Origin: Ilex aquifolium
Lineage: Eukaryota > Streptophyta > Magnoliopsida > Aquifoliales > Aquifoliaceae
DNA: 64,000 nt
Reading direction: 5' to 3'
NCBI GenBank assembly: GCA_951799425.1
Contig: OX637393.1
Location: 16,945,744 to 17,009,743, forward strand
Shown: piece after piece, positions 21,128 to 51,485 of the stretch
Layout of the letters: each line of letters opens with the position of its first letter
Position numbering within the stretch: position 1 is the first letter of the stretch
Translations under genes and position numbers: made by a program
Notes under the pieces: generated by a model
What the model was told of the DNA's origin: nothing
The model's input: only the letters and a program-made list of their open reading frames with translations
Database searches by the model: none

Positions 21128-21372
21128 TTGGTATATCGGTTCGCTTGTCCAGTGTACTGGTTTGTCAGACACTTCTTCCTTGGCCAAGTACTGGAGGCTT
21201 CCGAGGTTTGCCAGTTCACCAACCAGTATGCCGGTTTGTCAGCAGAGCTTTGCCGGTTCATCAAAGGACTTAGGATGCAAAGTACTGGGAGCTTTCGAGG
21301 TTTACCAGTTCAGAGTCCGGTATGTCGGTTCATCCATCCGGTATACCGGTTCACTCATCTGGTATTACCGGA
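21128..21372 (-). promoter_or_regulatory. Copia LTR palindrome array (CCGGTATACCGG core)
   Basis: About ten imperfect copies of a dyad with consensus AACCGGTATACCGGTT, for example ATCCGGTATACCGGTTC near 21337, GTCCGGTATGTCGG near 21315, ACCAGTATGCCGG near 21221, CCAGTGTACTGG at 21149 and TGGTATATCGGTT at 21129. The two promoter-proximal copies are 21 bp apart centre to centre. The array sits upstream of the TATA box. Role unknown; binding sites for a dimeric protein are one reading. Confidence 0.75.
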
Positions 21373-22136
21373 CACTCTATTTTTGCAGACAGAGTTCTCA
21401 TGTTTTCTTTTGCATTCTTTCTTCTTTGATCTTGCCTTTTTGCCACCAATCATAATCTGACAAACACACATCTAATCCACAAATTAAATCATGTTTAGAT
21501 GTTTATCAACACTAGAATAATGCTTAATCAAGCATTAGGTCAATATTCTCTCCCTTTTTTTATGATGAAAAGCATCTCAAACGAACAGTGAATGAAAACC
21601 ATAAACATTTAACCCAAAAATGCTCCCCTTGAGAATAAGCATATGTTTTAGTAGCATTTTTTTTCAAAAAATAAGACTCCCCCTTAATTTGTGCACATAT
21701 CAAACATGCTACAAGGACAACTTATTTTTAGAATTGTAATTGTTGGTGAGTTTCTATATGTATGTGGTATCTCCTTTGAATGCTTTAAATATATTGTTAT
21801 ACACCTACATAGATTTCTCCTCCTTTGGCATCACAAAAAAATATAGAACCAATGTCAATCACTTGCCAAATGTAGGAGGAGACAACTTAGATCATGCATA
21901 GTGCTCAATAATCATAGTGTTTCAACATTAGGTTTTCTCATAAGCATGCATGTCATAAGGAAAGAGAACCATTACCAATCATTCAAAACACATTATGAAA
22001 CAAAACTTCCACATTATCATATATTTGTGTTTCAACGCACAAGTCAAAATTACAACAATGTGATCACAAAACAAAAACATTCTTACACTCACAGATTTTA
22101 AGAATCTTTAGAGTGGTAAACATCAAATAAAAATAT

Positions 22137-23254
22137 CTAAAATTGCATGAAAGCATCATCGTCTTGAGGATCTTGTGATTGATACACAAAAGGTGGAGGA
22201 GGAGGAAGTGGGCCAAACTTGGCTTGGAAAAAGTCCATTACACCATCCACTTTGGTGTGAAGACTTTCCATACTTGTGGTGAGGCCTTCCACGGACCAAT
22301 TAACTTGATTTAAGTCTTTTATTGTGGCATAGATTGGCCTTGATATTCCTTCATCTCCTTCACCTTGCTCATCAACATTCAACTCTTGAGTGTGGGAAAG
22401 ATTTTCTTCTTGTTCTCTTTTATCACCAACATACATAGGCCTTGATGTTCCATCTCCTCCCACATCTTCTACTCTTTCTCTTTTCTTCTCCATTTTCTCC
22501 ATGGTTTCAATTCCCATATTTTTAAGTGATGTGCTTCCAAATAATGTTTTTACGGGAACACTCTCTTCATGTTAAGGTCAATGTCAAAGGCTTTAAACAC
22601 TTTAGTGAGAGTCATGCCATAAGGAAGCCATGCATTTCAGTTTTCCAGTTGTTACTTGTACTTCATCATGATACAAGGCAAATTTAATTTCCTACCAATC
22701 ATAATGCATACAATGATAAAAACTTGAAATTAGGTCACTTCATTGTAGTGCCCACCCTTTGGAATCACACTCTTAGTGAGAATCTTGTTGATTACTCTAG
22801 GAATTTCAAGCATATTTTTCACATCCATTTTTTGGTTTTTTTCATAATTTTCTCCAAACACCATATTCATACTCCCATTCACATTAGTTACATAGTCTTG
22901 CATGCTCCCCCTTTCCCAAAATAAAATTTCTTCATCCTCATCTTGTATGCCTAGGATTTGTGCAAGTTTCATTTGGGAGAGGTTGATAGCTATTCCTTTT
23001 ACTATGGACTTTATTGTGCTCAATGTCATAAAATGAAGATTGGCATAGAAACGACATACAAGTGCCCAGTAGTAGGGTTCATCTAAGACCATGAAAAGCA
23101 TCCAACCCATTTCACTTATCATGGTGTCTATACTTAAATGATAAAGTTGGTGAGGGATAAGAGGTTGACTATCCACAAAAGCCCTATTCTTATGCCTTGG
23201 CCATCTTGCTCTACACTCTTCATTGAGAAAGGAGAGATCTAGATTCTTCTTCAT
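22137..23254 (-). pseudogene. Copia third ORF (plant transposon-protein domain)
   Basis: Starts at ATG 23254 (MKKNLDLSFLNEECRARW) and ends DDDAFMQF at 22137. The N-terminal part contains YYWALVCRFYANLHF and IVKGIAINLSQMKLAQILGI, matching the pattern (FYxN...VxGxxIxxSxxxI) of the domain often annotated 'putative plant transposon protein' (PF20167 as I recall it). The C-terminal part (22517-22137) has an acidic Glu/Lys-rich linker, a heptad-like MESLHTKVDGVMDFF, then GPLPPPPPF and an acidic tail. The frame is broken between about 22730 and 22517. No signal peptide or membrane helix is visible, so an envelope role is unlikely. It lies after pol and has its own upstream array and TATA box. Function unknown. 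Confidence 0.6.
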
Positions 23255-23430
23255 TCTTCTCTCTTCTATTCCACCTGTAGTTCCCCTTTCTTTTTTCTTT
23301 ACCTCCTCTTGTCTTTGATGAAGCTATTTGAAGAGTTTTTGGGAAGAAGGTGAATAGTACTTAGGGTTAGGGTTTTTAAGAAAAATGGAAGACAATGGTT
23401 TGTAGTGATGAGAAATGGGTAGAGAAGAGG

Positions 23431-23438
23431 TTTAAATA
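23431..23438 (-). promoter_or_regulatory. TATA box upstream of copia ORF3
   Basis: Minus strand reads ATCTCTATTTAAACCTC, about 95 bp downstream of the nearest palindrome and about 180 bp before the ORF3 start codon. It suggests a separate transcript for ORF3. Confidence 0.5.
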
Positions 23439-23526: not shown

Positions 23527-23604
23527 ACTAGTATACTGGTTTGTCATTCCGATATACTGGTTGGCCTTTATGGTATACCAGATAGGAAAATCAGTATGCC
23601 GGAT
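23527..23604 (-). promoter_or_regulatory. Internal copia palindrome array upstream of ORF3
   Basis: Four copies of the LTR-type dyad: CTAGTATACTGG (23528), CCGATATACTGG (23549), TGGTATACCAG (about 23571) and TCAGTATGCCGG (about 23591). The two nearest the TATA box are 21 bp apart, the same spacing as in the LTR array. It lies between the end of pol (23672) and ORF3. Confidence 0.7.
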
Positions 23605-23671: not shown

Positions 23672-24127
23672 CTACCATGGATCTATGATGCCTAACTCCC
23701 ACCTAATAGTGAAAAATCGATCTTCACTCAATGGTTTGGTAAATATATCCGCTAATTGATCTTTCGTTCTCACAAACTCAAGCTCAATATCACCATTTTG
23801 CACATGAGTTCTAATAAAATGATGTCTAATCTCAATGTGTTTGGTTCTTGAGTGTTGGATAGGGTTCTTAGTAAGATTTATGACACTAGTATTATCAGAT
23901 CTAAATGGAATGTGATCAAATTCTAAATTGAAGTCTTTCAATGTTTGTTTCATCCATAAGACTTGAGCATAACTACATCCGGCCGAAATGTACTCTGCTT
24001 TGGCTGTTGACAAGGCAACCAAGTTTTGAACCAAGAAACAAGTGAGTGTCCAACGAATTGACAAGTTTCACTTTTTCCTTTTCTATCGATTTTGCATCCG
24101 AAAAAATCCGCATCAGAGTAGCTAATA
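23672..24127 (-). pseudogene. Copia pol, RNase H end (broken)
   Basis: The minus strand from 24127 reads ISYSDADFFGCKIDRK, then after a frameshift VALSTAKAEYISAGCSYAQVLW, DNTSVINLTKNPIQHSRTKH and a terminal ELGIID. These are the RNase H motifs of Ty1/copia pol (YSDADWAG...STSG, ALSTAEAEYIA, DNTSAI...HSRTKHI). The family's usual ADWAG is ADFFG here. The rest of pol is removed by the LTR inserted at 24128, whose left duplication would be TAATA (24123-24127). Confidence 0.85.
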
Positions 24128-25365
24128 TGTGACGCCCCAAAATCTGGGGGTCTTTTCTCAACTCATTGATCACCTATAAACCCGCGAAAATACCCATGAG
24201 TGCTGTATAACTCGATACCACGTCGTTTCACCCCTTTCACCAGGATCATAACCAAAATGGAATTTGGGCAATGTCTCCTTTGTACGGGAGCTCTACCTAA
24301 TACATAACCTGTGCATACAATAATCATAAGACCATTCCAAGGTCCACATCCCAAAATATAGGCTTAATATTCAACAAATTATATTATTCAAAGGTAAGGG
24401 CTCAAGAGGTGGAGGCTTAGCAAAGTTAATTTAAAATTTCAGTTTTTGTGAAGAGGTATTGTTACCTCGGGTATGTGGTACTGGTACCTGAGTCCTCTGG
24501 TTTCCAGGTGCCGGTACCTGTAAGTCGTGGTACCGGCACCTGGGCCCTCGATAGAGTGGTCCTAGTACCTGTGAACCTAGGTACCGGTACCTGAGCCCAC
24601 TGTCTTCAGGGTACCGGTACCTATGTGCCTAGGTACCGGTACATGAGCTCTTTAGATGCCAAGTACCACAGGTACCGGTACTTAGAGCCCAGATTTCGCC
24701 CAAACATCCCAAAATTCAACTTTTAACCATTCAATGTATACCACACTCATTCCTTTTACAAAAGAATAATGTTCCATTACATGCCTTAGTCAAAATACAA
24801 GGTTTGTACATGATTTATACAAGATCAAAAAAAAAAAATTAGATAAATGATTACAAATGTAATTTAAGAGCCACAACCCGGCTCTTCCTTCAACATGGGC
24901 CCAAGTGAGGGCCATCTGCCGAAGCTTGTTCAATACTTGAAATATGTCTCCATAAAGGGTAAGCCACGCTCAATAGGGTATCTCATAAGGAGGCTACTCC
25001 CCAACCCAGATGCATATGAAATGTCACATGCAAATCATCAAATCAAACATTCATTCAAGGTGAAATCCACGCATGCAATCCAACTCGGAGCCCTCCATCG
25101 ACTCCCATAACACATGTCATGCCATGCGTATGCATCCAGACACTCTAAGCCCCCACAATTGATGTTAGATATCCAATGACCATTTTATAAAATCTTGTGT
25201 CTTTCTTGCGGTGGGTATTTATGGACTTCCACCAATGGGTACCCAACTGACACAACATCTATAGACTTTCACTAACGGTTTCGTGTATATCAACACACTT
25301 TTTTGACTTAATATCAACGGGAGTGCGTATAAGAAATTTCCGGGTCTTGCATCCAAGGGAGAATC
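24128..25365 (-). mobile_element. Tekay-type 3' LTR, part 3 (3' end)
   Basis: Minus-strand LTR end GGGGCGTCACA at 24128, the terminus expected for chromovirus LTRs. The sequence continues leftwards from 38619 once Athila-1 is removed; the duplication of Athila-1 is GAATC (25361-25365) and GAATT (38619-38623). It contains the GGTACCGGTACC array. Together the three LTR parts sum to about 2.4 kb. Confidence 0.7.
24452..24684 (-). promoter_or_regulatory. Tekay LTR palindrome array (AGGTACCGGTACCT core)
   Basis: About nine dyads, including perfect AGGTACCGGTACCT (24579) and variants GGGTACCGGTACCT (24609), AGGTGCCGGTACCT (24506), TGGTACCGGCACCT (24528) and GAGGTATTGTTACCTC (24452). It sits in the 3' part of the LTR, downstream of the likely TATA box (complement of 39393-39400), unlike the other arrays here. 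Confidence 0.75.
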
Positions 25366-25568
25366 TAATGCATAGTTAAAAGTTACATCTTATTATGCCT
25401 TTATGAGATTAATTATGCTTTAATTGTGTTTAAATAATAATATTTCAGGATAAAGAAAGTACAAGGGCTTAAAGGCAATAACATCAATCTTTCAAGCAGT
25501 ACACATGTGTTTTAAAAGAGAACTCAAGAAGGAGGAAACAAGTTGCATGACAAAGTGGACTTTACTTC

Positions 25569-25771
25569 CACGTTCGAACGCCACTTTCACATTCGAACGC
25601 CACATTGAAATCATTCAAGATCTCCATGAGGCTATTAGGGAGATGACACGAGGCTAGTTACTGTGGATGACAAGACTACATTAGCAACCACGCTTGAACT
25701 CCAACAGCGTTTGAACGCATTTCAAAGAAGAAATGCTTTAACATTCGAACGTCAAGTACCGTTCGAACGTC
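25569..25771 (+). promoter_or_regulatory. Athila-1 LTR palindrome array (ACGTTCGAACGT core)
   Basis: Six dyads: CACGTTCGAACGCC, CACATTCGAACGCC, CACGCTTGAACTCC, CAGCGTTTGAACGC, ACATTCGAACGTC and ACCGTTCGAACGTC. The promoter-proximal pair is 18 bp apart (centres 25746 and 25764). The TATA box follows about 106 bp later. Confidence 0.8.
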
Positions 25772-25869
25772 AATCCTTGATAGAATGCATGTAGATTAGA
25801 TTTCCACCCAGATTTTCTAGCATATGCTTGGACTTTAAGCACCTAGGTCTGTCTTTTACCTCCCTTGTC

Positions 25870-25877
25870 TATAAATA
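25870..25877 (+). promoter_or_regulatory. TATA box of Athila-1 5' LTR
   Basis: TTGTCTATAAATACC; the same box is at 37556-37563 in the 3' LTR. Confidence 0.7.
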
Positions 25878-26938
25878 CCATCCCTTGGAACTTGCTGAAA
25901 GATATCTTTTGGAAGTGGGAAAACCCTCCAAAAGTAACTAGTTTTCTTCAACTTTCATCATTAGTTTCATTACCTTCCATTGTAAAGCTTCTTTCTTCAC
26001 TTGGAGGATTAAATCTCTCTCACCTTTCTAGCTCTCTTGTAGCTTTGAAGGGTGGGTAGTGTTTCACTCATTCTTTGTTGGAGATAAGCATATTGTTTTG
26101 GGTAAACGTTAACTTGTAATTATAACTTCCTCTACTTGGAGGGATGAGATTCATTCACTTTTCTAACTTTCTCAAATCCATGAAGAGTGAGTAGTTTCTC
26201 ATTCACTCTTTAGTGAGAGGTGATGAACATGTATATTATTATTCGAAAGTTATATTTGTGCATTTTATTTATGCTTAATGATTTATCTTTCCATTGCTTA
26301 TTAAATGATTGAATGCATCTAGCAAAACTAAAATTACTTTGTACAATCATGAATCTCTTATAGACAAGTTAATTCTTGACATAAGAGAATTCATTGGTTC
26401 TTTGCAAGTACTCAAGCTAGGTCTTTATGACAAATTTTTAATTTTCATTGTCATTATGCTTTAACTAAGAATGGGATAACTTTACAGTTGCTGGATGATT
26501 TGTAGGATTGTTTGCTTGTTTGTAGACGGGTTAAGTCTCGGCACAAACAATTCTTGCAAATCTCTACAAAGATATCAGAGCCATGCTCTTGATTCACACA
26601 TTCCATCCTTATCCTCCAATTAACTTACTATTGACATAGGGGTTAATTGAGTTGTTTACAAAACAAAAATATAACAACCGGATGAATAAATACATGTCCA
26701 GATCCTCGAGCTAAAGGGTGACTTTTTCATTTAAGAGAATCGTGTATTTTGTTTAGAAAATTCTATAATCATCATAAATTCAAATCTCAAGGGTTCCAGT
26801 CACTTTGGTCTTTATCACTTATAACTTCCAAATACCAACATTAGTTCCCTATGGATTCGACTCCGGACTTAATCGGATTACAAGTATAACTTGACCACCT
26901 GCACTTGAGTGTACACATTTCAGATAAAGTCAAGTTTT

Positions 26939-26957
26939 TGGCGCCGTTGCCGGGGAA
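26939..26957 (+). promoter_or_regulatory. Athila-1 primer-binding site
   Basis: TGGCGCCGTTGCCGGGGAA, six bases after the LTR end. This is the primer site characteristic of Athila/Tat elements, complementary to a tRNA 3' end (tRNA-Asp in the literature as I recall). Confidence 0.9.
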
Positions 26958-27040
26958 TCTAACGGTGTTTTAAAGTAAAAAGTGAAAATACATTTATTTG
27001 TGGTATATATTTTTGATTTATTGTATATAATTTTTATTTT

Positions 27041-28480
27041 ATGTCTGAGGACGATCCTCGCTTTCAAAATTTGCCAGAAGAATTTGTTGGGTCTGTAAAT
27101 CAATCTGAACCTTTCTCACCTCGATTAGTAGCAGACTCCTTTGATAATAGCATGACCAATAATGAGAGAGAAGGGTAAATTCCTAATATTCGAACTCTAA
27201 GGTATTATTTGCATCCCACACGAAACAGTGTCCCTTCTTGTTTTGTGTTTCCTAAAAATGCGCCCAACTTTAATGTCATGTCGGGAACAATGCAATGGCT
27301 ACCTCAATTTCATGGAGTCGAATAAAAAAACCCATATTTACATATTAAAGAATTTGAGGAGGTATGTGGGACATTCCAAAATAATTCTGAACTTTTTCCT
27401 TTCTCTTTAAAGGAAAAAGTTAAACAATGGCTAAATTCTTTGAAAGCCCATTCGATACCAAACTGGCAGGCATTACAAAATTAGTTTTTTAGGAAATTTT
27501 TCCCTTTACACCATACCAATACATTTAAAAGGCAAATCATGAAATTTTTGGTTAAAGAGGGAGAGACATTTTACCAATATTGGGAGAGATTCAAGGATCT
27601 TCTCCAAGCCTGCCCACACCATGCTTTTGAGAGTTGGATTTTGGCAGGATTTTTCTATGATTCTCTGCCCACTCGACTACATCAGTTTTTTGAAATGATG
27701 GCTCAAGGGGAGTTCATGGGAAAAATTCCAGAGGAGGCATTTGAATTTTTTGATACCATATCCGAAAGTTCCCAGATGTGGGACTCAGCCTCTCCCGTCA
27801 CTGTTGAAGCAAACCATCTACTTCCCAAGGGGGAAAATATGTTTTAAAAGAAGATGATGACCTGAGGACAAAAATAACTACCTTCTCTCGAAAGCTTGAA
27901 GCTCTAGAGATGAAGAAGGTAAATCAGGTTGCTGTTGGCCCTCTCACAGAACAAATGTGTGTGATTTGTGCATTGATAGGACACCCTACTAGGGAATGTC
28001 CTACCATTCCTGCATTTAAGGAAGTTTTGTTAGAACATACCAATGCAATTTCTAATTTTAGCAAGCCCTATTCCAACCCTTATTCCGAAACTTATAATTC
28101 AGGGTGGTGGAATCACCCGAATTTCAGCTGGAGGAACACACAACAACCTCCCATAAATCCACAACAAGGTTCACAACCACCACCTCAATGGCCTCTTGCG
28201 TATCAACTATACCAACCACCACACAAGAGAAGTCTTGAGGACACATTGAATCAATTCATGCAAAGCCAAATGAACTACAACAATCATTCCACTCAGGCTT
28301 TCAATGACTTCAAAACCCAAACCCATCAGTTGTTTGAGGATCTGAAAAGTCATATCTAGAAGTTGACCCAATCAATGACCACACATGAGAAGGCAAGTTT
28401 TCTGCCCAACCTAAACAACCACAAGGTCAATATCATATGGGTAATCCTTCATCCATGGAATCTCCACAAGATTAAGTTCA
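27041..28480 (+). pseudogene. Athila-1 gag (broken)
   Basis: Starts at ATG 27041 (MSEDDPRFQNLPEEFVG). The capsid region includes LHIKEFEEV, FPFSLKEKVKQWLNSL and FYQYWERFKDLLQACPHH, the Athila gag pattern. A CCHC zinc knuckle CVICALIGHPTREC (CX2CX4HX4C) lies near 27960-28000 and binds the RNA genome. A Gln/Pro-rich linker (NPQQGSQPPPQWP) follows. At least four stop codons and one frameshift interrupt it. Confidence 0.85.
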
Positions 28481-28556
28481 AGTCATCACCACTCTAAGAA
28501 GTGGTAAAGTCATTGATAAAACCATCAAACCATCACCACTCAATGAGACCACACCT

Positions 28557-31500
28557 GTGCTGCAACCTACACAACTCTCTCCAGGTGAGACTGAGTCTAG
28601 AGAAGATAAGGATTCACGACCACTATATCTCATTCCTACTCATTTTCCTCAAAGACTCAAGAAAACACAGAAGTTGAACAACCATGCAGAAATTTACGAG
28701 CTTTTTAAGCAAGTAAAAATCAATATACCACTTCTGGACGCCATCAAGCAAGTTCCTTCTTATGCCAAGTTTCTAAAAGACATATGCATAATCAAATAAG
28801 TCAAAATGTTCAGAAAATGGCTTTCTTAACTGAACAAGCCTGTGCCATACTCCAACACAAAACCCCTCCAAACTACAAGAATCCGTGGTTTCCCACAGTG
28901 TCATGTGTCATCGGGATTTTCAAGATAGAACAAGTATTGCTTGATCTTGGAGCCAGTGTCAACTTACACCTTTCTTAGTCTACCAACAATTAGGTTTGGG
29001 TGAAATCAAACCCACATGTATCACATTACAGTTGACAGATAGGTCTATCAAAGTTTCGAGGGGTATTGTTGAGGATGTCCTTGTTCAAGTGGACAACTTC
29101 TTTTTTCCCGTCGTCTTCATTGTCTTGGATACTTAGCCAGCAATATATTCGGGAATCAAATTCCCATCATCCTTGGTCAACATTTCCTAGCAACTTTAAA
29201 TCCATTAATCAATTGCAAGAATGAGGCAATGAAATTAACTTTCGGGAATATGACTCTTGAGCTTAACATTTTCAACATTGCCAAGCACCCGGTGAGGAAA
29301 AAGAATTGAGAGAAGTGAATTTCATTGAGTCTTTGGCAAATGAAAATTTGAACAGAGAAAATTGTGAAAACTCCCCAGAATCTTGTTTACTAGAGTCTAT
29401 CACACCAGAGTTGGAAGATGACTGTCAGAGTCTAAAGAGTTGCCCAACTCATGCTGTCGGGACATGGGTACCCAAATTTAAAGAATTGACCTCAAGTGGT
29501 ACAAAGCCACTCTCATCCAGGGTTAAGCCACCAAAGCCTGAATTAAAACCCCTCCCATCTGACTTAAAATATGCATTTTTAGGGGAGGACGAGTTTTATC
29601 CAGTGGTCATTTTATCCAAGCTTGCAAATTTACAAGAGTCTAAGTAATAGAAGTCCTTAGACGTCATAAGAGTATCATTGGGTGGACCATTGCTGATTTA
29701 TAAGTTATAAGTCCATTAATTTGTAATCATGTTATATACCTCGAAGATGATGCAAAACCCTCTTGTCAAATGCAGCGACGGTTGAATCCCCACCTGAAGG
29801 AGGTTGTACGGACTGAGATGCTCAAACTATTAGATACATGAATCATCTTTCCCATCTCTGATAGTAAATGGGTCAGCCTAACCCAAGTCGTGCCCAAGAA
29901 GTCTGGGGTCATAGTGGTTAAAAATGATGCCAATGAGTTGGTACCAACTTGAGTTGTCACAGGATGAGGAATGTGCATAAACTACCGGAAACTAAATTCG
30001 GTGACTAGGAAGGACCACTTTCCTCTTCCCTTTCTCAATCAAATCTTAGAAAGAATTGCAGGTCATGCATTCTATTATTTCCTAGATGGGTATTCTAGGA
30101 GCAATCAAATCGAGATAGTACTTGATGACCAAGAGAAAACAACATTCACATGCCCATTCGATACTTTTGCATTTAAAAGGATGCCGTTTGGACTTTGTAA
30201 TGCTCTTGCAACATTTCAAAGATGCATGTTGAGTTTTAGTGACATGATTGAGAGATTTTTGGAAGTATTCATGGATGATTTTTCTGTGTATGAAGATTCA
30301 TTTGAATTATGTTTAACTAACCTGAAAAATGTTTTGATAAGATGTAAGGAGACCAATCTGGTGCTTAATCGGGAGAAATGTAATTTCATGGTAACACAAG
30401 ACATTATTTTGGGTCACATTGTGTCATTAGAAGGCATAAAAGTTGACAAAGCAAAAATAGATCTGATAGGCAATTTGCTTGCTCCTAAAACTGTTAAAGA
30501 TGTCTGATAATTTCTAGGGCATGCAGGGTTCTATAGGAGATTCATCAAAGATTTCAGTACCATATCAAAACCCACGTGTCATCTCCTAAGTCAGGATGTA
30601 ATTTTCGTATGGAATGAGGCATGCCAACAAGAATTTGATAAGCTTAAAGGTATGTTAATCTCCGCTCCAATAATGCAATCTCCTGATTGGATGTTGCCCT
30701 TTGAATTGAGGTGTGATGCAAGTGACTATGCTGTGGGAGTAGTGTTGGGTCAAAGGAAGGATAAAAAACCTTATGTGATCTATTATGCAAGCAAGACTCT
30801 GAATGATGCTCAAATGAATTATTCCATAACTAAAAAAGAATTGCTTGCTCTGGTTTTTGCTCTAGAAAAATTTTACTCTTATCTAGTTGGTGCATCTGTC
30901 ATTGTGTTTACCGATCATGCAATGTTGAAGTATTTGCTCACAAAAAAAGGATTCCAAGCCACGACTATTGAGATGGATACTCTTATTGCAAGAATTTGAC
31001 CTAATCATCAAGGAAAAAAAAGGGGTTAAAAATGTAGTGGCAGATCATCTATCAAGGCTGACATATGAATTCCTTGAGGACAAGTTACCAATCAATGAAA
31101 ATTTTCCTGATGAGCAACTGTTCACAATCTTGGAATTACTATGGTATGCTGATATTGCTAACTTCCTAGTCACTGGTACGTTCCCCCTTCTTTTACCATT
31201 ATGGATAAAAAGAAATTTTTAAGAGAAGTGCGTAATTTTTTTTGGGGGGATCCATACGTGTTTAAATACTGAAAGGATAAAATCATAAGATGTTGTGTAC
31301 CCAATCAAGAGATCAGACAGATAATTTCTTTTTGTCATTCTGAAGCATGTGGCGGCCATTTTTCGTCAAAAAAAAAAAAAAAACCGTTGCAAAAATCTTA
31401 CAGTGTGGATTTTATTAGCCCACAATTTTTAAGGATGTTCATGCCTTTTGTCTAACATGTGATAGATGCCAAAGGCTAGGGAGTATTTCTAAAAGAAACA

Positions 31501-32441: not shown

Positions 32442-32896
32442 ATTTTTGGGGGTTCAAACACAGAGAAGGGTCGAGTCATGAGAATTTCCATCCCAAGGGC
32501 CCAACCCTACCCGAACAATGTCTTTATAAAAGCATCAAAACCCTAAATTCACATCACTTTTTCACACTTCACTTTGCCGCTCTTCTTCTTCTCCCTCTTT
32601 ACCTTTGATGCTCATCCTCTGCAAAGTCCATGACTTCACACTCAACAGATACCGTCCTTTATTTTATATTTTGTATTTTAATTCTTTATTTACTCATGGG
32701 TTTCGTTCTTATTTATGCATTTACGCATCAGGATCCCAATGTTGAACAAAACCCTAGTTTTTGTAAAGCTGAGTAAATGTAATAAAATTGTGTATTTTTT
32801 TTGTAGGACTTTTGTCTATGTGTAGATCTCTCTCTTTCAATTCTAAATGTACTTGTGCATACTGGTAAATTCGAAACATTGAGGACAATGTTGAGT

Positions 32897-32913
32897 TTAA
32901 ATTTGGGGGTGAG
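32897..32913 (+). promoter_or_regulatory. Internal polypurine-like tract after pol (Athila-1)
   Basis: TTTAAATTTGGGGGTGAG follows CATTGAGGACAATG. It resembles the terminal tract AAGTTGGGGGGTG before the 3' LTR and could prime a second plus strand. Confidence 0.5.
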
Positions 32914-33782
32914 AAATATTGATCGTATTTGTAGTATTTGTACAATCTTGTAGTCTTGATCGTATTTTTCACCACCATAAATATACATTTTAAAAAAAAT
33001 GATCGTCTTTAAAGGCAGCTTTAATCGTCTTTGTGACTGGAAGATGTTAATGAACCAGATAGAGTGTTTTAAGCCTAGCAAACATGGGTGTTAAGATTTT
33101 TTGGTTCAGTTTAGGTGTTTTACACACATTTTCATATGATGTACATTTTGTAATAATGAAAAAAGTAAGACTGGTAAGAAAAATTGAAATCCGAGAAGAG
33201 CAAGTGAAACCATTATGTGGAAGAAGTACTTAAGCTAAACTTCGCCGCGCCAAATGACTTGGTGCGTGTAATCAATGTGGCATGCTCTTTCATATGAGGG
33301 AATATAATCAATGTTCTAAACCAATTTTTGGTCGCGTACTCGATCATTTAGATTGAATAGTGTATGAGCAGAGTAAGGATTTTCCTGACATGCCATACTA
33401 TACCAGTCCTGTGCTTACACATTATGTGCGACAAAAAATTGGTAGAGTCACTGATTTTCAAACAAAATGCAGACAAGGAAAGACTCGGATTAGAAATCTT
33501 CTTTGACAAAGTTGGGATAAGTATATGTTTATGGGGAATGAAGGTCAATGGTCCAAACCACTTCTGTAAAAATGTATATTTTTTTTTGTTAAATTTACAA
33601 TTTTTTTGCTGAAATAAGATGTAGCCTGAGTAAGGAATGTCCTAAATTGCCAACGAAATTGTAGCGTGGGTAGAGACTTCTTCTGAGACGCCATACTTTT
33701 TCAAGTTTTATTTATGCATCTATTTTTCTAGTATTCATTTTTTTTATTTTATATATATATATATATATTGTGATTTTAGGTT

Positions 33783-33934
33783 GGCGTTTGAACATAAGGA
33801 GCTTACAGTATCTCAGGTTCTGTAGAGAACCAAAGTACTGGGAGTAACTTTAGTTCGAATGCCAGATCCACGTTCGAACACAATTTTAAAATTTCTTAAA
33901 CTTTAGTTTGAACATCAGTTACGTTCGAACGTTG
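33783..33934 (+). promoter_or_regulatory. Internal Athila-1 palindrome array upstream of ORF3
   Basis: Five dyads with the same core as the LTR: GGCGTTTGAACAT, TAGTTCGAATGCC, CACGTTCGAACAC, TAGTTTGAACATC and ACGTTCGAACGTT. The last two are 17 bp apart, close to the 18 bp of the LTR pair, and the TATA box starts 19 bp after the last centre. Confidence 0.75.
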
Positions 33935-33944
33935 GCTGTCAGGG

Positions 33945-33952
33945 TATAAAAA
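33945..33952 (+). promoter_or_regulatory. TATA box upstream of Athila-1 ORF3
   Basis: CAGGGTATAAAAAGCTGG, 207 bp before the probable ORF3 start codon and directly after the array. Confidence 0.65.
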
Positions 33953-34158
33953 GCTGGATCATCTTCTCCAGTTCAGATATCGTCCCAACCCCTTCAAAAC
34001 CCAAGCCCTAGGCAACCCCTTTAACTACCCAAGCCTCGAAAACTTCTCCCCCTTCAATTTTTCCTCAAAAATCATTCACCCAAACCATTTTCCTATCCAA
34101 TTTTTCACTTTTAATCGAACAAATTCAGCCTAACCCCTAAAAAACCGCCAAATCCAAG

Positions 34159-35238
34159 ATGCCTCCAAGAATGAAGATGCCCGCTTGACGAAATGTGAAT
34201 GTAGTAAGCCAAGAGCCGAATTTTGTGGAAGAAATCATCGAGGAAAGGCATGGAAGGCCAGCACTTGTCCATCAATATGATCGTACTCATTTTCCCAGCG
34301 TCCTCAAGGCCGATAGGTATGACACTTACTTTCAAAATCAACCCATTGTGTGTGAATGAACTATTGAATTACACCATTTTGCTGAGTTGGGTATTTTGGC
34401 GATAATGGAAGCAAGGGGTTGGGATAATTACTTGAGGAATGGAGGGGAATCAGTGAAGAAAATTGTTAGGGAGTTCTACTCCAATGCCGAGGTGGTGAAT
34501 GGGGCGATCAATACGTATGTGAGGGGGATTTACATCAATGTGAGTGAGAAAACTATTTTGGATGTAAGGTCGGTGCCACGGGTACCTAGGCCTAACTATC
34601 CTCCAAGGAAAGAAGTAAGTTTGGATGTGGTGGGAGTAGAATTGACCGAAATTGTGAACTTAAAGTTGGGGGGGGGGGGGGGTAAACGGTTTCTTAAGCA
34701 AGGAGAAGTGACCGACAAATACAAAATGCTTAAATTAATTGCCGTTTCAAATTTTGCTCCACTTGGGAAAAATAATGAAATTCTTCCAGACATGCCTCGA
34801 CTTTTGTATGCGATAGGAAAGAATCATAGCATTGACCTTCCCTATTTGATCTTGTCTAAGATGATCAAAGGTTGTGATGCTAAGAGAAATTCACTTTCCT
34901 TCGGAACGTTAGTAAAAGAGATTTGCATTGACTAGGGAGTGAAGATCAAACCAGAATGGGAAGTGCTTAAGCCAATGGGATTTTTGAACAAGGTTTCATT
35001 GCGGAGGAGCCAGGGCCACAGTGGAGGACAAGCAGCAAGGGAGGACATGCCGTCAGGACATGGCACCGATGAGGTGCAAGATACCTTGGATCCCGAAGAA
35101 GAGAGGGAGGTAGAATAGGCCCATGCTGAGATGGGTGACAAAAGGACTCTACGAGAGATTATGCTTAGCATCGAACCAAAGTAAGATGAGATTCTCCGTC
35201 GTTTGGGTGGTGGATTTGGTGGACCTTCAGGCACTTGA
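34159..35238 (+). pseudogene. Athila-1 ORF3 (plant transposon-protein domain)
   Basis: Reading from ATG 34159 (MPPRMKMPA) the frame continues through in-frame stops to GGPSGT* at 35238, about 359 codons. The core contains GWDNYL, VREFYSNAEVV, YVRGIYINVSEKTI and SFGTLVKEICID, the same pattern as the third ORFs of the copia element and Athila-2. The C-terminal part is acidic (DPEEEREVE) followed by a helix-like segment. In-frame stops include codon 10 (TGA, probably from CGA), codon 65 (TGA), one after EICID and two further on. A G15 run (34668-34682) encodes five glycines. No membrane segment or signal peptide is seen. Function unknown. Confidence 0.65.
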
Positions 35239-37039
35239 ATTGCTAGTGATTGTGTTCATTTCTGTTTCTTTGGTTTACTATGTGTTTTGTTTCTTTAGAT
35301 AATTTAAGTGTTTTTTTTTTGAATCATGGGACATTTTGAATGGGTTATGCTAGTCATTACATTTTGAATCATGGGACATTTTGAATGGGACATTTTAAAT
35401 TTTAGTCATTGCATTGTTATTTTTTGTTAATTGATAGAATTGATGTGATATTAAGCTTACGTGCTAAAGTGACTAAGCACAGGGTACTCTTGACACTTAA
35501 CCTAACAGTCCGAATTGAAAACCTCATTTCCTTGAAAAAAGGTATTTTCTCTATGCTTAAGTATCGAATGCACATTGGTATTTATTATTCTTAAGAAAGT
35601 GCAGAATAGCCAAGCTTGAAAATGGAATTGGGATATAACCTATATTTTTTGAAAACTTGACATAATCAGTTGAGATAATGAAGAATCATGTGGTAAGCTT
35701 TTGAGCTTTACGATGCTTTTGAGAGAAAATCAGCACTTACTAAAGTACGGTTTTTCACTTTCCATTTTTGCATAATCTCATTAAGTCTGTTTTGATTGAT
35801 GCAAATAGAGTAGTATATTGATGTATCCCACAAAGAATTTGTTCACACGAAAAATACATGTGCACAGGCCTGAGAAAGGATCTTAGGCCATTTTTGATTT
35901 TTCTTTGAGCCTTATCCATTTCTTTTGCAACAAAATCTCTTGTCAGCCATGATTGAGCCTGAAAATGATAACTCTTTTCTGTAAAGCCATGTTTTTTACG
36001 AAGCCAGTGGAAAAATACTTATTCCTACCTTGGTTATCTAATTTTCTTGCATATTCTCTTAAAGGCAGACTTTATGGAAATGAAAAAGGAAAGTAAGGGG
36101 GAAAAGGGAAAACAAAAGAGTAGGAGGAGATGAGCAAAGAAAGAAAGAAAGAAATGCAAAAGAAACCAATCTAGCAAATGAGTTGTGATTTGAAAGAAAA
36201 GGGGGACGAAATAACAGGAATGAGTATTTCAAAGATAAAATGAAGGAGAGAAGGAGAAAATGTGCAAAATTATAATGAAATTGGACAACCCTTTTTGAAC
36301 TCTTCTCATTTGTCATTTCATTCACCACTTACCTCTGGCCACATTATAACCTGGAAAAAGCCATATTTGATCTCAGTTCTAATGCATGTGTAGGAAGTCA
36401 ACTAAAATTTGGGGTATGTTAATAGCAATGCTTTATTTGTATCAAAATTCCTCCATGAGATTATGCCAAACGTGTTAATTTGTTTTTCCTGGATTCCACT
36501 CCCACAATTTTTGTGCATGTGAAAAAAAAAAAATTTGCGATTAACCTTCTAATCACATTCCTTTTTTAGAGAAAGTCACTAAAGTCGGAGGGAATTTTTG
36601 CTGAGGGCATTCTAAGAAAGGTTTGTGAAATCAAAGCTACCCGTGGAGGGTTGTAAAGAAGAATGTTTGTTATATGATGATTCTTGTCACTAGAATGATT
36701 ATTTTTCACATAGGGAATTTCAAATGCCAATGTAACAAGTGTTTATTTTTGCATAGAGTAGAGAAGTGTTGGGAAACAATTCGAAATTGAGGGTTGGGTG
36801 TCTCAATGATCATGTGTTAACTCACTCTGATAAGAAATCTTACATATACACATGTATTCAACTGAAGTTTGTGGGTAGCTTCACTGAAAATCCTCACGAG
36901 ACAACACTCGTCCACTAGGGGAAACCTAGAGGTTTAACCACTTGTTGCATATGCTAAATTCAACCGGGTGACCTACGAAAATGGCATTGTAAATATAATT
37001 TCATTCGGATGTTTATATTACTAGGGACTAGCAATATGC
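35239..37039 (+). other. Athila-1 non-coding region between ORF3 and 3' LTR
   Basis: About 1.8 kb, AT-rich, with no coherent reading frame. Part of it (36059-36330) is purine-rich. It probably serves as 3' untranslated sequence. Confidence 0.6.
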
Positions 37040-37052
37040 AAGTTGGGGGGTG
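37040..37052 (+). promoter_or_regulatory. Athila-1 terminal polypurine tract
   Basis: AAGTTGGGGGGTG directly before the 3' LTR start TGATGCATAG. Confidence 0.85.
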
Positions 37053-38618
37053 TGATGCATAGTTAAAAGTTCCATCTTATTATGCCTTTATGAGATTAAT
37101 TATGCTTTAATTGTGTTTAAATGATAATATTTCAGGATAAAGAAAGTACAAGGGCTTAAAGGCAATAATGTCACTCTTTCAAGCAACACACATGTGTCTT
37201 AAAAGAGAACACAAGAAGGAGGAAACAAGTTGCATGACAAAGTGGACTTTTCTTCCATGTTCAAACACCACTTTCACGTTCGAACGCCACATTGAAATCA
37301 TTCAAGATCTTCAGGAGGCTGCTAGGGAGATGACATGAGGCTATGTGGATGACAAGTCTGCATTAGCAACCACGTTCTAACTCCAACAGCGTTTGAACGC
37401 ACTTCAAAGAAGAAATGCTTTTACATTTGAACGCCAAGTACCATTCGAACATCAATCCCTGACAGAATGCATGCATATTAGATTTCCACCCGAATTTTCT
37501 GGCATAGGCTTGGACTTTAAGCACCAAGGTTTGTCTTTTACCTCCCTCCCTTGTCTATAAATACCATCCCTTGGAACTTGCTGAAAGATATATTTTGAAA
37601 GTGGAAAAACCCTCCAAAAGTAACTAGTTTTCTTCTACTTTCATCATTAGTTTCATTAGCTTCCATTGTAAAGCTTCTTTCTTTACTTAGAGGATTGGAC
37701 CTCTCTCACCTTTCTAGCTCTCTTGTAGGTTTGGAGGGTGGGTAATGTTTCACTCATTCTTTGTTAGAGATAAGCATATTATGTTTGGGTAAACTTTAAC
37801 TTGTAATTATAACTTCCTCTACTTGGAGGGATGAGATTCACTCACGTTTCTAGCTTTCTCAAAGCCATGAAGAGTGAGTAGTTTCTCATTCACTCTTTAG
37901 TGAGAAGTGATGGTCATGTATATTATTGTTCGAAAGTTATATTTGTGCATTTCATTTATGCTTAATGATTTATCTTTCCATTGACCATTGGATGATTGAA
38001 TGCATCTAGAAAAGCTAAAAGTACTTTCTACAATCATGAATCTCTTATAGACAAGTTAATTCTTGACATAGGAGAATTCATAGGTTCTTTTGCAAGTACT
38101 CAAGCTAGGTCTTCATGACAACTTTTCAATCTTCATTGTCATTATGCTTTAACTAAGAATGTGATAACTTAACAGTTGTTGGATGATTTGTAGGATTGCT
38201 AACTTGTTTGTAGACGGGTTAAGTCCCAGCACAAACAATTTTTGAAAATCTCTACAAAGACATCAGAGCCATGTTCTTGATTCACACATTCCATCTTTAT
38301 CCTCCAATTAACTTACTATTGACTTAGGGGTTAATTGAGTTGTTTAAAAAACACAAATATAACAACCGGATAAATAAATACATGTCCAGATCCTCAGCTA
38401 AAGGTTGACTTTTTCATTTAAGAGAATCGTGTATTTTTTAAGAAAATTCTATAATCATCATTACTTCAAATCTCAAGGGTTCCAGTCACTTTGGTCTCTA
38501 TCACTTATAACTTCAAAACACCAACATTAGTTCACTGTGGATTTGACTCCAGACTTAACCGGATTATAACTACAACTTGACCACCTGCACTTGGGTGTAC
38601 ACATTTCAGATAAAGTCA
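37053..38618 (+). repeat. Athila-1 3' LTR
   Basis: Begins TGATGCATAG and ends AGATAAAGTCA; 1566 bp against 1567 bp for the 5' copy. Its palindrome array (37255-37453) is more decayed than that of the 5' LTR, for example TGTTCAAACACC for CGTTCGAACGCC. TATA box at 37556-37563. Confidence 0.9.
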
Positions 38619-39645: not shown

Positions 39646-40601
39646 TGCTTGATGGTTTCCCCTGTAGTATATCCTAAGCTCCGGACATCACCCTCAATGT
39701 ATGTATGGCGTATGTGTGAAGGGAGTGTCACTCTCCCTTGGGATGATGTCAAAAGAAAGGGCAACGGAAAGGTGGAATGAAATGTAACGTGAAATGAGTG
39801 CGTGTGTACAAAAATGCTTCCCAAGCGCAAGAAGACTTTTGTGTGTTGTGTTTTACTTGGAGAGTACTCCAAGGTCGTCTCCTCAGGGAAGGAGGTGAAT
39901 CATTTTGAAGGTGATTGTGGTAAAAATAAAGTGTAAAATCTTTTGTTGTTGAAGTTTGGTTTGTGAGTTGTATTGTGATGAAAATGAAATGGGAAACAAG
40001 GGTTGGCTAATCCAAAAGGTTCACTCCAATGGGAATTCCAAGTCAACTCGAAACCTTCCTCTAATGGTGCATAGATGAACGATTGATTCGTGGGAAGCTC
40101 GGGACAAGATGGAAGTGAGAATCCAAGCATAACCCGTGACAAGTCTACGGGATATCAAAGACTCACAACCGTGTCCACACTCAACCCAGTCAAACCGAAC
40201 CATTGTACACCGAGGGGAGGAAAGAAGATGAGTTGAAATGACATACCCAAGAGGAGGTCTCCCTTGGATTAGCCAACTTAAAAACTTAGCTACTCATGCT
40301 TAAAGGAAAGACACTAATGTAATGGAAAGACATTGTGGAGCAATGAAGAATTTAACTTAGTTAATGCAAGAAAACATAAACTAAAAGAGAATGCATTTAA
40401 TACCCATTTTAAAACTAAGAAAATGAAGAACATGAATGCATTAATGGTGAAAGCTTGAATATAAGATGAAACTTAAAAGCAACTTGAAATAAATGGCATT
40501 CAAGACTTCAAACAAAGCTTAGAAAGGTCTTACAATGGATTACAAGGCAATGTATGGAAAGAAAATGGAAAAAACATTAACTTCTCTCTCTAGCACTATT
40601 C

Positions 40602-40648
<47 letters not shown>

Positions 40649-41433
40649 TACAATGTATCTTAGCTAATGCTGAATAATGGTGGTCAAGCTTGCCAAAAGC
40701 GTCCATGGAGCCCTCCCCAATGCTGTGTGATGTCATTCTCATCATGGGGGTTGAAAGGGATGGGATGGTGCAGGCTAGGACAAGCCTAGCCTTTCTCTCT
40801 TGCCATGCCTCTTCTCTTTCTTCCTCATTAATGCAAAAGCCATCCAAGTCCAAGTAGAGGTGAGGGGAGGCTCCTAGACGTGCAGGGGATGTCAGGGGAT
40901 CTGCTGGAGAAGTGTAAGTGGGACCCCAAATGGCAGAGCTTGAGTTGCAGGCTGTCTGGGCAAAACCTTCCGGAAGGTCGACAAAAACCTTCTGGAAGGT
41001 TTGTGCATGAATAGTTAAATGAAGCAGTCGACTGGATAAACCTTTCAGAAGGTTCATTCCAGTAGACAAAACCTTCTAGAAGGTTTCACTCCAGTAGGCA
41101 AAACCTTCTGGAAGGTTTTGGCAGTGAAAAAAAGAAATCCAAGGCAAAACCTTCCGGAAGGTTTTCAGCCCAACCTTCTAGAAGGTTTTCAACCAATTTG
41201 CATTTTCTTGATCTCTTCACCCTCCAAGCCTTCTTTTAAGCTACCCCTTCATCTTCATTGACTTCAATCACTTCAATGGGGGCTCATCTCAAGCTATTTA
41301 CATCATTTTTCCTGCATTTACACAAAACTCCATCAAAACGAAGTTGAAACAAATTTCTCCCCAACTTATGAAAAAAGCAAGTATTAAAACGGAATATTAG
41401 CATCCAAAATATGTCATGTTTTTGTGCTAATCA
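39646..41433 (-). repeat. Athila-2 3' LTR
   Basis: On the minus strand it begins TGATTAGCACAAAAAC and ends AACCATCAAGCA (39646). It contains the AAACCTTCCGGAAGGTTT array (40964-41188) and a (CT)n tract near 40604-40646. Length 1788 bp. Confidence 0.9.
40964..41188 (-). promoter_or_regulatory. Athila-2 3' LTR palindrome array (ACCTTCCGGAAGGT core)
   Basis: Seven dyads with centres near 40971, 40993, 41046, 41077, 41109, 41155 and 41179. Two are perfect (CCTTCCGGAAGG); the others differ mainly in the central CG (CTGG, CTAG, TCAG). The 5' LTR has six (55169-55363). I see no strong TATA box directly downstream. Confidence 0.8.
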
Positions 41434-41447
41434 CACCCCCCAACTTG
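41434..41447 (-). promoter_or_regulatory. Athila-2 terminal polypurine tract
   Basis: Minus strand CAAGTTGGGGGGTG immediately before the 3' LTR. Confidence 0.85.
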
Positions 41448-41756
41448 AGTTTTTCTAGTCCCTAGTAAACATTATTTCAAAGCATAAGCTATAAAATTAA
41501 AAGAAAATTCATTCATACCACCATACCATCCATAACATTCAAAATACACAAATCATATTACAATTGCAAAATTAGCTTTGGGCAATGATTTAAACAAAAG
41601 AGATGTGGTATTTCATTAATCATTTCAAAAAGTTCTTTACAATGGTTCAAGTTCCAAAACAAAACGGCCAAAACCTAATGACACTTCTACTGGCTGACAC
41701 AAGGAACCCTAACTGTGTACAACCAAAATTCAAAACAAAACAAAAGACAAGAATTC

Positions 41757-43028
41757 TCAGTCCGTATCAGTCCTCTTTCTAAATTCAAAAGCACCCCCGT
41801 CCTCAGGTTCGGACTCGGTCTCTATCTCCTCCTCATCATTGTCATCACCATCATCATCATCATCCATCTCCACAGTCACTGAGGGCACAGGAATAGAAAC
41901 TGTGGGTCCAGTTGAAGGCTGTGGGGGTGGTGGTGGTCCTCCAGGGTCAAACTCACCCGGGAAAGTATGCTCAAAGAGCCTTGTAATCATGGCAGACATC
42001 GCGTGGACAGTGGACTCCAATGTGTCCATACGCTGTGCCAAGGTATGGGTAGGAGCTGGTGGTGGTGCTGACGAAGAAGTCCCAGCATTTGACGGCTGTG
42101 CACCTGGAGCCCTAGCTCTCTCACCCCCAGTCCTGGCAACCCTCTTCAGACTGCTGGACTTGCATATGGCTCTAGAACCTGGAGGGAGCAGTGTATCATG
42201 TGCATCAAATTCTACATCGGCTAGTTCACAGAGACGGGTGACAAGACTGCCAAAGGGGAGATTTGCCTTTGGCTTTGCAAGCCGGGCAAACTCCCACATC
42301 TCCAACCAAATGAAGTATACCACGTCAATTGTAACTCCTGTCCTGAAAGCATGAAGCAACGCTAACTTCTCAACGTTCGGGCTCTTCTCCGAACCCCGGG
42401 GCGTCATGTTAGTGTGAAGAATCTTACTCATAACCCCATAATCGTGCTTGAGGCTCCCAACCAACATTGTTCCTGTGAACGTGGTCGGGTCCTCATAGGT
42501 GAGGGCTACGTACTCTTTGAGAGTCCTACCCCCTTCTACATTGTGTGAGTAGACCGGGGTGGTCGGGGGAGGCCTCTCATAGCCCATTGCTATGGCAATC
42601 GTAGTGGGGGTTACATCAAATGTTCTGCCCCTCACATTCGTCCTTAACTTACTCCCATTTTCTCCAAAAACCACCAGCTTCTGGTAAAACTCGCAACACC
42701 ACCCCAAGTGATACCCCTTGACCTCCTCAAACCACGACTTCAAACCTCGTTCTTCAATAATTTTCACTACCTCATTTGTAGCCCCGAGAGAAGTTTTATC
42801 CACCCATCGCTCACAAGTTACTCCTTTCTCCTCAATACGTTGCCTGCGGGCGTTGTGTCTTACTTTCATCCTCCGCTCCGCCCTATCTTGGGAGCTAGGA
42901 CCCTCCCTGGTCCTTTTCCTAGAAGCAGAGCCAGAGGGGGTGGAGGAGGACCGGTGCCGGCGTTCTTGGTTCAGGCCATGAGCATCAACAGTGCCCCAAC
43001 ACCAAGAACCATAAAAAACATCCGCCAT
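41757..43028 (-). CDS. Athila-2 ORF3, 423 aa, open (plant transposon-protein domain)
   Basis: The only uninterrupted third ORF in the window. ATG at 43028 is the first in frame; a TGA lies just upstream. Residues about 30-70 are basic (SRKRTREG, RRMKVRHNARRQRIEEKG), like a nuclear or nucleic-acid-binding segment. The core (about 75-280) has WFEEVKGYHLGWCCEFYQKL, VRGRTFDVTPTTIAIAMGY and NLPFGSLVTRLCELADV. The C-terminal part has a heptad-like LAQRMDTLESTVHAMSAMITRLFE, a proline run and an acidic tail (MDDDDDGDDNDEEEIE). There is no signal peptide or membrane helix, so it is not an envelope protein. It lies after pol, downstream of an array matching its own LTR. A chromatin- or DNA-binding regulator is an inference. 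Confidence 0.7.
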   Translation of the reverse strand: MADVFYGSWCWGTVDAHGLNQERRHRSSSTPSGSASRKRTREGPSSQDRAERRMKVRHNARRQRIEEKGVTCERWVDKTSLGATNEVVKIIEERGLKSWFEEVKGYHLGWCCEFYQKLVVFGENGSKLRTNVRGRTFDVTPTTIAIAMGYERPPPTTPVYSHNVEGGRTLKEYVALTYEDPTTFTGTMLVGSLKHDYGVMSKILHTNMTPRGSEKSPNVEKLALLHAFRTGVTIDVVYFIWLEMWEFARLAKPKANLPFGSLVTRLCELADVEFDAHDTLLPPGSRAICKSSSLKRVARTGGERARAPGAQPSNAGTSSSAPPPAPTHTLAQRMDTLESTVHAMSAMITRLFEHTFPGEFDPGGPPPPPQPSTGPTVSIPVPSVTVEMDDDDDGDDNDEEEIETESEPEDGGAFEFRKRTDTD

Positions 43029-43370
43029 ACGCTCTCCAATGGCTCAAAAACTTCTGAAGACATTCCATTCACACGAGCCATCACATAAGAGTAGAGGGGT
43101 TTGAGAAAGATCAAAGGAGAACTGAAAAAAAATGGGAAAGAATGAGGAACTAGGGTTTGTGTAGAAAGCTTGGTATTTTTTGGCTATAACCCTCTAAATC
43201 TCAACCCTAATCAAGAGAACTTAAGCAATTTGAGGTTTGGGGGAAGTAGTTTGAAGGTTAGAAGGGAGTAGGAGGAGAGGAAAGGGTTTGGAAGTAAGAA
43301 ATGGATTGGAAATGCGAAAGGTTTTTCGAAAGTTTCTAACTTGAAGCCCTCGTTTTTAGGTTTCTGGGCA

Positions 43371-43548
43371 AAACCTTCCGGAAGGTTGACAGAAACCTTC
43401 CGGAAGGTTTTGCTTACTGCCTGGGTTAAAAATTCCAGTAGAAAAAACCTTCCGAAAGGTCGATCAAAACCTTTCGGAAGGTTTTGCTCACTGGACAAAA
43501 CCTTTCGGAAGGTTTTGCTCACTGGACAAAACCTTTTAGAAGGTTTTG
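43371..43548 (-). promoter_or_regulatory. Internal Athila-2 palindrome array upstream of ORF3
   Basis: Six dyads (centres 43379, 43401, 43453, 43475, 43506, 43537) of the LTR type, for example AAACCTTCCGGAAGGTTTT. The pair nearest ORF3 is embedded in CTGGGCAAAACCTTCCGG, as is the pair nearest the promoter side of the LTR, and both pairs are 22 bp apart. ORF3 starts about 340 bp further on. Confidence 0.8.

Positions 43549-51395: not shown

Positions 51396-51398
<3 letters not shown>

Positions 51399-51480: not shown

Positions 51481-51485
<5 letters not shown>

Follow-up and report, generated by a model that had tools for sequence, protein, structure and literature searches.

In a nest of plant long terminal repeat (LTR) retrotransposons, which lies in a 64,000-nucleotide stretch of Ilex aquifolium DNA (GCA_951799425.1, contig OX637393.1, positions 16,945,744 to 17,009,743 of the forward strand; hereafter the window), we found that a palindrome array of the LTR reappears 0.2-0.35 kb 5' of the additional 3' open reading frame (ORF3) in all three ORF3-bearing elements of the window (3/3), namely a Ty1/copia element resembling the Sireviruses and two Ty3/gypsy elements, Athila-1 and Athila-2 (Table 1). 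The arrays of these elements lie where the original prediction had placed them, and its proposal of paired, co-evolving LTR and ORF3 promoter arrays is supported by their positions, their cores, the core conservation in Athila-2, the helical spacing in two elements and the published Sirevirus pattern (PMC2829016). From these features we consider it probable that the LTR and ORF3 carry paired promoter modules under one dimeric binding protein; the binding, the promoter activity and the one shared factor are what we infer from sequence rather than observe. All results not taken from the literature come from this single window of 64 kb, with three paired elements and a single comparison of sister families.

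Each array would offer a series of binding sites to a dimeric protein with sequence specificity, the LTR array would act as the enhancer of the genomic-RNA promoter in the unique 3' (U3) region, and the duplicated array, kept by selection 0.2-0.35 kb before ORF3, would form a second, internal promoter, which would express ORF3 under the same factor as the LTR. When the specificity of the factor shifts, all sites of the element would be expected to follow as a set.

Bousios et al. 2010 described 13 Sireviruses with element-specific palindromic repeated motifs (RM) in the LTR, upstream of the TATA box, and further copies before the envelope-like (ENV) gene in 9/9 motif-bearing ENV Sireviruses, with linker copies in 0/4 ENV-less ones; at least six ENV-containing Sireviruses are without the motif (PMC2829016). 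The authors saw support for an internal ENV promoter, obtained mainly stress-related sites from PLACE, termed the motif Sirevirus-specific, and were unable to name a common factor (PMC2829016). Given this pattern, the copia half of our finding is already known, and the claim of three independent elements stands for the three pairs, the copia case having a direct precedent in print that the original prediction did not cite. The copia element of the window fits the Sirevirus RM system, with LTR palindromes before the TATA box and extra copies before the ENV-like frame, and the RM boxes are like the present arrays in their LTR copies shortly before TATA, their copies before the ENV-like gene and their CpG-bearing cores (PMC2829016). 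In contrast to that Ty1/copia system, two Athila families here have internal copies and three further LTRs have arrays, and the published CGG...CCG order is seen only in the copia core among the five core types of the window. What is new, as judged from the sequence, is the paired arrangement in two Athila (Ty3/gypsy) families, beyond the Sireviruses, together with the helical phase in copia and Athila-2, the contrast of decay and conservation in the Athila-2 cores and the mirror-image difference between Athila-2 and Athila-3; no report of such arrays in Athila was found in the open-licence literature, judged mostly from search listings.

Matching cores of the LTR and internal arrays

In a blind ranking of 992 10-bp palindromes, from which AT-only words were left out since a shuffle-based run had AT repeats at the top in the Athila-1 pre-ORF3 interval, the top palindromes of the copia LTR (CGGTATACCG) and the Athila-1 LTR (CGTTCGAACG) were each rank 1 in their own pre-ORF3 interval with 0 sites in the other two, while the top palindrome of the Athila-2 LTR (CTTCGCGAAG) was only rank 16 in its own interval (2 sites) and CTTCCGGAAG was rank 2 in both Athila-2 lists (LTR and pre-ORF3 interval). 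None of 123 random array-free 800-bp windows contained at least three sites of any one of these top LTR palindromes. Moreover, profiles built from the LTR sites, with a threshold that allows three hits among 61,615 array-free bases, matched the pre-ORF3 interval of their own element 3 (copia), 3 (Athila-1) and 6 (Athila-2) times, and none of the six pairings with a foreign interval gave a hit. Weak matches that lay outside the arrays (four per LTR of Athila-1; 56473 and 57770 in the LTR of Athila-3) were excluded from the counts. The match of LTR and internal cores beyond chance, on which the original prediction had staked itself, thus holds in the window (0/123 random windows, 0 cross-matches). 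Its statement that cores agree within and differ between elements was borne out for copia and Athila-1 (rank 1 in both lists) and by the profiles, which matched only their own element; in Athila-2 it holds for the common rank 2 palindrome and not for the top LTR palindrome.

All three ORF3s matched Pfam Transposase_32 (PF20167), the copia one below the Pfam cut-off. A protein search returned two sequences: P0001, a relative with 46% identity across 75% of the query, and P0002, a fragment. Among viral contigs no relative of ORF3, the integrase or the reverse transcriptase was found, and a two-site pattern was also unmatched there.

Conservation, spacing and promoter context

A gapped alignment joins the Athila-2 LTR and internal arrays, together with their spacers, over some 170-190 bp; the internal array is accordingly a diverged duplicate, and the match is not confined to the cores. 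A neutral origin, in which an LTR piece was copied upstream of ORF3 and both copies drifted without function, would leave an alignment of this kind. The two LTRs of one insertion are identical at the time of insertion. Within the array, the Athila-2 LTRs differed from each other at 8/72 core and 5/143 spacer positions, whereas LTR and internal array differed at 12/72 core and 44/117 spacer positions, and the contrast of the two patterns was significant (Fisher p 0.007; p 0.014 when the second LTR serves as reference). Over the whole Athila-2 LTR pair, cores differed at 9/84 positions versus 56/1650 elsewhere (p 0.003), a faster decay after insertion that we attribute to the CpG in the cores. 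These counts support that the Athila-2 cores are conserved between LTR and internal array in the active lineage and decay after insertion. Since the cores were kept and the spacers were not, the reverse of the LTR-LTR pattern, neutral duplication is disfavoured; the same layout recurs in three elements whose cores are unrelated, as well as in the published Sireviruses, and we regard a neutral origin as very improbable.

The LTRs of Athila-2 and Athila-3 are homologous through U3, with the array at an equivalent place. Position 4 is T in 13/13 Athila-2 sites (seven of the LTR array 40964-41188 and six internal, the six sites of the other LTR not being counted) and A or G in 6/6 Athila-3 array sites, and position 9 shows the mirror-image change, A in 13/13 Athila-2 sites against five T and one C in the six Athila-3 sites. 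Such an array-wide mirror change would be the trace expected from an altered specificity of a dimeric binder. If this co-variation is true, the pre-ORF3 array of Athila-3, which would lie past 64000 and outside the window, is expected, given that ORF3 is present, to be CCTACCGGTAGG-type, with position 4 an A and position 9 a T, and not CCTTCCGGAAGG.

Helical phase was tested with one LTR per element at 10.5 bp per turn, and the p values are to be read with successive spacings not independent: the copia spacings of 21 bp (five times), 74 and 94 are whole helical turns (Rayleigh p 0.001), those of Athila-2, mostly 22, 31 and 52-53, are in phase (p 0.004), and the pooled phase gave p 0.005 for all six families and p 1e-6 for four families picked post hoc. 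Further, the TATA-like scores after the copia LTR array, both Athila-1 LTR arrays and the Athila-1 internal array are expected by chance 0.02-0.03 times per 150 bp, and the earlier claim that both arrays of these two elements precede a TATA box was upheld at these places. CpG observed/expected was above both 400-bp flanks in 8/11 arrays.

The palindromes could instead function as hairpins of the genomic RNA, as a small-RNA source or decoy or as packaging signals, and not as DNA sites. In line with this, 7/8 array stretches folded better than dinucleotide shuffles (z at most -2.0; -10 for the Athila-2 internal array), a test that is unspecific because any palindrome row folds, and a small-RNA excess has been described on maize Sirevirus palindrome clusters (Bousios et al. 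2016, via PMC10760457). The Athila-1 5' LTR stretch folded in an ordinary way (z -1.1), and there is no RNA reason for the helical spacing in copia and Athila-2 or for the positions right before promoters; we presume that the RNA explanation is improbable.

Further arrays and the candidate binding proteins

Beyond the arrays of the original prediction, three more were found, in the chromovirus-like LTR, in a solo LTR inside Athila-2 and in the Athila-3 LTR. The first lies near the 3' end of its LTR, about 1.5 kb past a TATA box spotted by eye near 39400 (-), and no TATA-like site beyond chance follows it (24455-24690) on either strand; as read from this layout, its role must be another than that of the U3 arrays, or it must serve a start further downstream. 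The arrays of Athila-3 and of the solo LTR (49106-51502) likewise have no TATA-like site beyond chance after them. The ends of this solo LTR come close to the TGTCACACCC-GGGCGTGACA given in print for Retrosat2 and RIRE8 (PMC3485330), so it is probably a chromovirus LTR, which with the internal region gone is not proven. Its array and that before the Athila-1 ORF3 could be aligned across about 98 bp with a spacer included (z 11.4, 60 shuffles), and the alignments of the LTR and internal arrays within Athila-1 were weaker (z 7.2 and 2.8). Judging by these alignments, elements of apparently different kinds can have an array in common, through exchange or a common source. A precedent for LTR modules crossing clades is the RLG_Quinta LTR motif, for which an origin in a Copia family was proposed; that module differs in being linked to nucleosome positioning and in not being a palindrome array (PMC11302176). 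A second solo LTR (about 59263-60735), inside the Athila-3 gag, is a mosaic with Athila-1-like middle stretches and a 3' part 88% Athila-2-like, which suggests recombination between Athila LTRs; it has no clear palindrome array, and only a weak GACAATTGTC set of three was seen (z 4.8, shuffle maximum 4.1).

Several of these and other observations weigh against paired promoter modules. The mosaic solo LTR is a counter-example among the U3 regions examined, and the chromovirus-like array, at 1.5 kb past its TATA box, is by position no U3 enhancer. In the Athila-1 LTR pair, cores differed at 8/60 positions versus 52/767, which has the same direction as in Athila-2 and is not significant (p 0.07). 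The pairing of LTR with internal sites is partly arbitrary because repeated sites can be aligned in several ways; a comparison without alignment, of all LTR with all internal sites, gave core/flank identities of 0.70/0.36, 0.71/0.29 and 0.86/0.50 in the three elements, and this is biased in favour of the core because the sites were chosen by core likeness. Concerted turnover of repeats alone could also spread a mirror-image change across an array. Helical phase was not significant for the chromovirus array (22 alternating with 29-30, p 0.07) or for the similar Athila-3 array (p 0.08), the Athila-1 spacings of 17-19, 34, 67 and 101 are out of phase (R 0.35, p 0.33), and those of the solo LTR array (50899-51048) are a half-turn off phase with a step of about 17 as in Athila-1. 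The best TATA score after the copia internal array is expected 0.39 times by chance and so lies within chance, where the claim of a TATA box after both arrays gave way, and in Athila-2 no TATA-like site beyond chance was found downstream of the LTR or the internal array. Lastly, CpG was not above both flanks in 3/11 arrays (chromovirus, Athila-2 5' LTR, Athila-3).

If the arrays are indeed promoter modules with one binder, the odds are about equal between ORF3, which would then form an autoregulatory loop like that of VANC, and a host transcription factor. The latter explanation, under which host transcription factors bind the arrays, the families recruited different ones and ORF3 is a passenger gene, is a serious possibility that falls short of even chances. 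It is favoured by the probable chromovirus solo LTR, which has the core and the long spacer of Athila-1, hence one core in different element types; the 'element-specific' character of the original prediction accordingly holds as the absence of cross-matches among the three pre-ORF3 intervals, and a strict rule of one core for one element is disfavoured, which fits a host factor or the use of another element's factor. The Athila-2 cores contain TTCNNGAA, which we take to be as in heat-shock elements, and the Athila-3 half-sites contain ACCTACC, presumably as in MYB AC elements; these likenesses would also suit host factors. A heat-shock factor as the common binder was rejected, since TTCNNGAA, by the consensus that we assume, fits one core type of five (Athila-2). 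For host factors further speak the mainly stress-related PLACE sites of the Sirevirus motifs, the LTR arrays that persist in 4 ENV-less Sireviruses (PMC2829016), and a maize Copia palindrome that is also the top motif of Helitron structured regions (PMC10760457). However, no single known site fits every core, the Athila-1 and copia cores not being heat-shock sites, and a mirror change that affects every counted site in the comparison of sister families exceeds what a stable host factor needs.

That ORF3 (Transposase_32) itself binds, as an element-encoded activator or anti-silencing factor like VANC, we likewise hold to be possible rather than probable. The chromovirus clade is not known to carry Transposase_32, and the array in the chromovirus-like LTR speaks against ORF3 as the binder, as do the structure predictions from two models (mean predicted local distance difference test, pLDDT, 43 and 38), which gave no usable fold, and the search for solved structures related by sequence, which found none. 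An array before ORF3 in 3/3 elements here and in 9/9 published motif-bearing ENV elements (PMC2829016) argues for it, together with a sunflower Athila protein that has partial Transposase_32 similarity and a predicted nuclear localisation signal (PMC11728184). Re-reading Table 3 of PMC2829016, we noted that the ENV-less OPIE-2 and PREM-2 have the core CGGAC-N-GTCCG of the ENV-bearing HOPIE (all maize), and that the ENV-less Osr8 has the core CGGTC-N-GACCG of the ENV-bearing Osr10 (rice), as would be expected of parasites on a partner's protein. Near-identical Sirevirus cores in distant hosts (Osr10, Osr8, Vitis, Inga) make this core sharing a hint only and count against ORF3 binding, as do the ENV-less Tnd-1, which has an array and no listed partner, and the ENV-containing Sireviruses, at least six, without the motif (PMC2829016).

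The system closest to such self-recognition is VANC of the VANDAL elements, for which Hosaka et al. 2017 showed binding to motif arrays in one orientation and their concerted change (PMC5735166). Both systems have arrays of short non-coding motifs, which change as a set from one relative to another, and an extra protein encoded by the transposable element, and divergence of the arrays as a set was found in our one comparison (Athila-2 versus Athila-3); VANDALs differ in being DNA transposons, with the VANC21 motif YAGTATTAY in a single orientation and non-palindromic, and in that binding was shown there and the arrays here are known from sequence (PMC5735166). A 2026 sunflower paper cites VANC and does not settle if proteins of that kind are encoded by Athila elements or if they shape methylation (PMC12844716). 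The additional ORFs of Tekay chromoviruses are similar as extra proteins with predicted nuclear signals and differ in their 5' position and in having no similarity to known domains (PMC11728184); none was seen in this window.

The role and expression of the extra 3' gene of plant retrotransposons is a long-standing question, and matched arrays in two superfamilies make the function of ORF3 directly testable, by binding to its own core and by transcription that begins at the internal array. Should ORF3 bind, plant LTR retrotransposons would have a VANC-like self-recognition. The 'envelope-like' ORF3 with Transposase_32 might even be, rather than an envelope, a self-recognising DNA-binding regulator that acts on the arrays of its own LTR and ahead of its own gene, giving a positive loop and a self/non-self code, with the array-sharing ENV-less and chromovirus-like LTRs as its regulatory parasites; we put this forward as a speculative and rather unlikely extension.

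Elements and other features of the window

Table 1. Arrays, ORF3 frames and LTR retrotransposons of the window (positions count from the first nucleotide of the window)
Feature	Position	Strand	Remarks
copia LTR array	21128..21372	-	CCRGTATRCYGG-type sites; TATAAATA 78 bp downstream
copia internal array, upstream of ORF3	23527..23604	-	four sites, spacing exactly 21 bp
Athila-1 5' LTR array	25569..25771	+	ACGTTCGAACGT-type; TATAAATA 99 bp downstream
Athila-1 internal array, upstream of ORF3	33783..33934	+	TATAAAAA 11 bp downstream
Athila-2 internal array, upstream of ORF3	43371..43548	-	spacings 22, 52, 22, 31, 31
copia ORF3 open segment	22730..23323	-	Transposase_32 E 7.7e-08, 32.9 bits, under curated cut-off 45
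Athila-1 ORF3 open segment	34360..34935	+	Transposase_32 E 5.3e-18
Athila-2 ORF3	41757..43043	-	428-aa open frame, Transposase_32 E 9.8e-23
Chromovirus-like LTR array	24455..24690	-	GGTACCGGTACC sites; spacings 22, 30, 22, 29, 22, 30, 22, 39
Solo LTR	49106..51502	-	2397 bp, 5-bp target duplication ACCGA; ends TGTAACACCCC...GGGCGTTACA; inside Athila-2
Solo-LTR array	50899..51048	-	CGTTCGAACG in six sites; shares its core and a long spacer with Athila-1 internal array
Athila-3 LTR array	56566..56735	+	CCTACCGGTAGG-type; place homologous to Athila-2 LTR array
copia (Sirevirus-like) element		-	retained: pol end, ORF3 segment, one LTR
copia pol end	23672..24067	-	copia RNase H-like motifs
Chromovirus-like element		-	Tf2-1-like SH3 domain 55994-56245; LTR outer end near 24130
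Athila-1	25368-38618	+	
Athila-1 5' LTR	25368..26932	+	92.0% identity to 3' LTR
Athila-1 3' LTR	37055..38618	+	array at 37255-37453
Athila-2	39674-55614	-	
Athila-2 3' LTR	39674..41433	-	array at 40964-41188
Athila-2 5' LTR	53870..55614	-	94.3% identity to 39674-41433; array at 55169-55363
Athila-3	start near 56310	+	

Read from the flanks, the chromovirus-like element (-), of whose internal region only about 0.5 kb lies inside the window, seems to have inserted into the copia element, and its LTR seems to have been split by Athila-1 and Athila-2. By its motifs, the copia pol end (23672-24067) reads as a copia RNase H; it had no Pfam match at E 0.01. In Athila-1, the reverse transcriptase precedes the integrase, and Athila-2 has gag and integrase matches and a pol 77% identical to that of Athila-3; neither is thus a Ty1/copia Sirevirus, though their arrays would work in the manner of the Sirevirus RM system. 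Both Athila-1 and Athila-2 have the Ty3/gypsy gag-pol with a 3' additional ORF that marks the Athila lineage. The lineage name, as assigned from sequence, rests on the Ty3-type domains and on a primer site that we take to be of the Athila kind. It rests as well on the Transposase_32 similarity of sunflower Athila (PMC11728184).

Near the copia LTR, at about 21625-21690 (-), GGGG(G)AG tracts were spotted by eye, candidates for the multiple polypurine tracts that Sireviruses have ahead of the 3' LTR. The word CAAAGTACTGGGAG has two occurrences in the window, one at 21278 in the copia LTR array and one at 33831 in the Athila-1 internal array. At 33789-33856 of the Athila-1 internal array and 50921-50988 of the solo LTR, two sites stand 67 bp apart, and the sequence that separates them folds into an imperfect hairpin with GTACTGG-like words; this solo LTR (49106-51502) also contains a long (TA)n tract near its 5' end. 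In addition, a cluster of GTATCGTACGATAC-like palindromes at 3660-3800 was not tied to any LTR element of the window, and a host gene segment at 11771-13972 encodes a PRP21/SF3A1-like splicing factor (Surp, PRP21_like_P).

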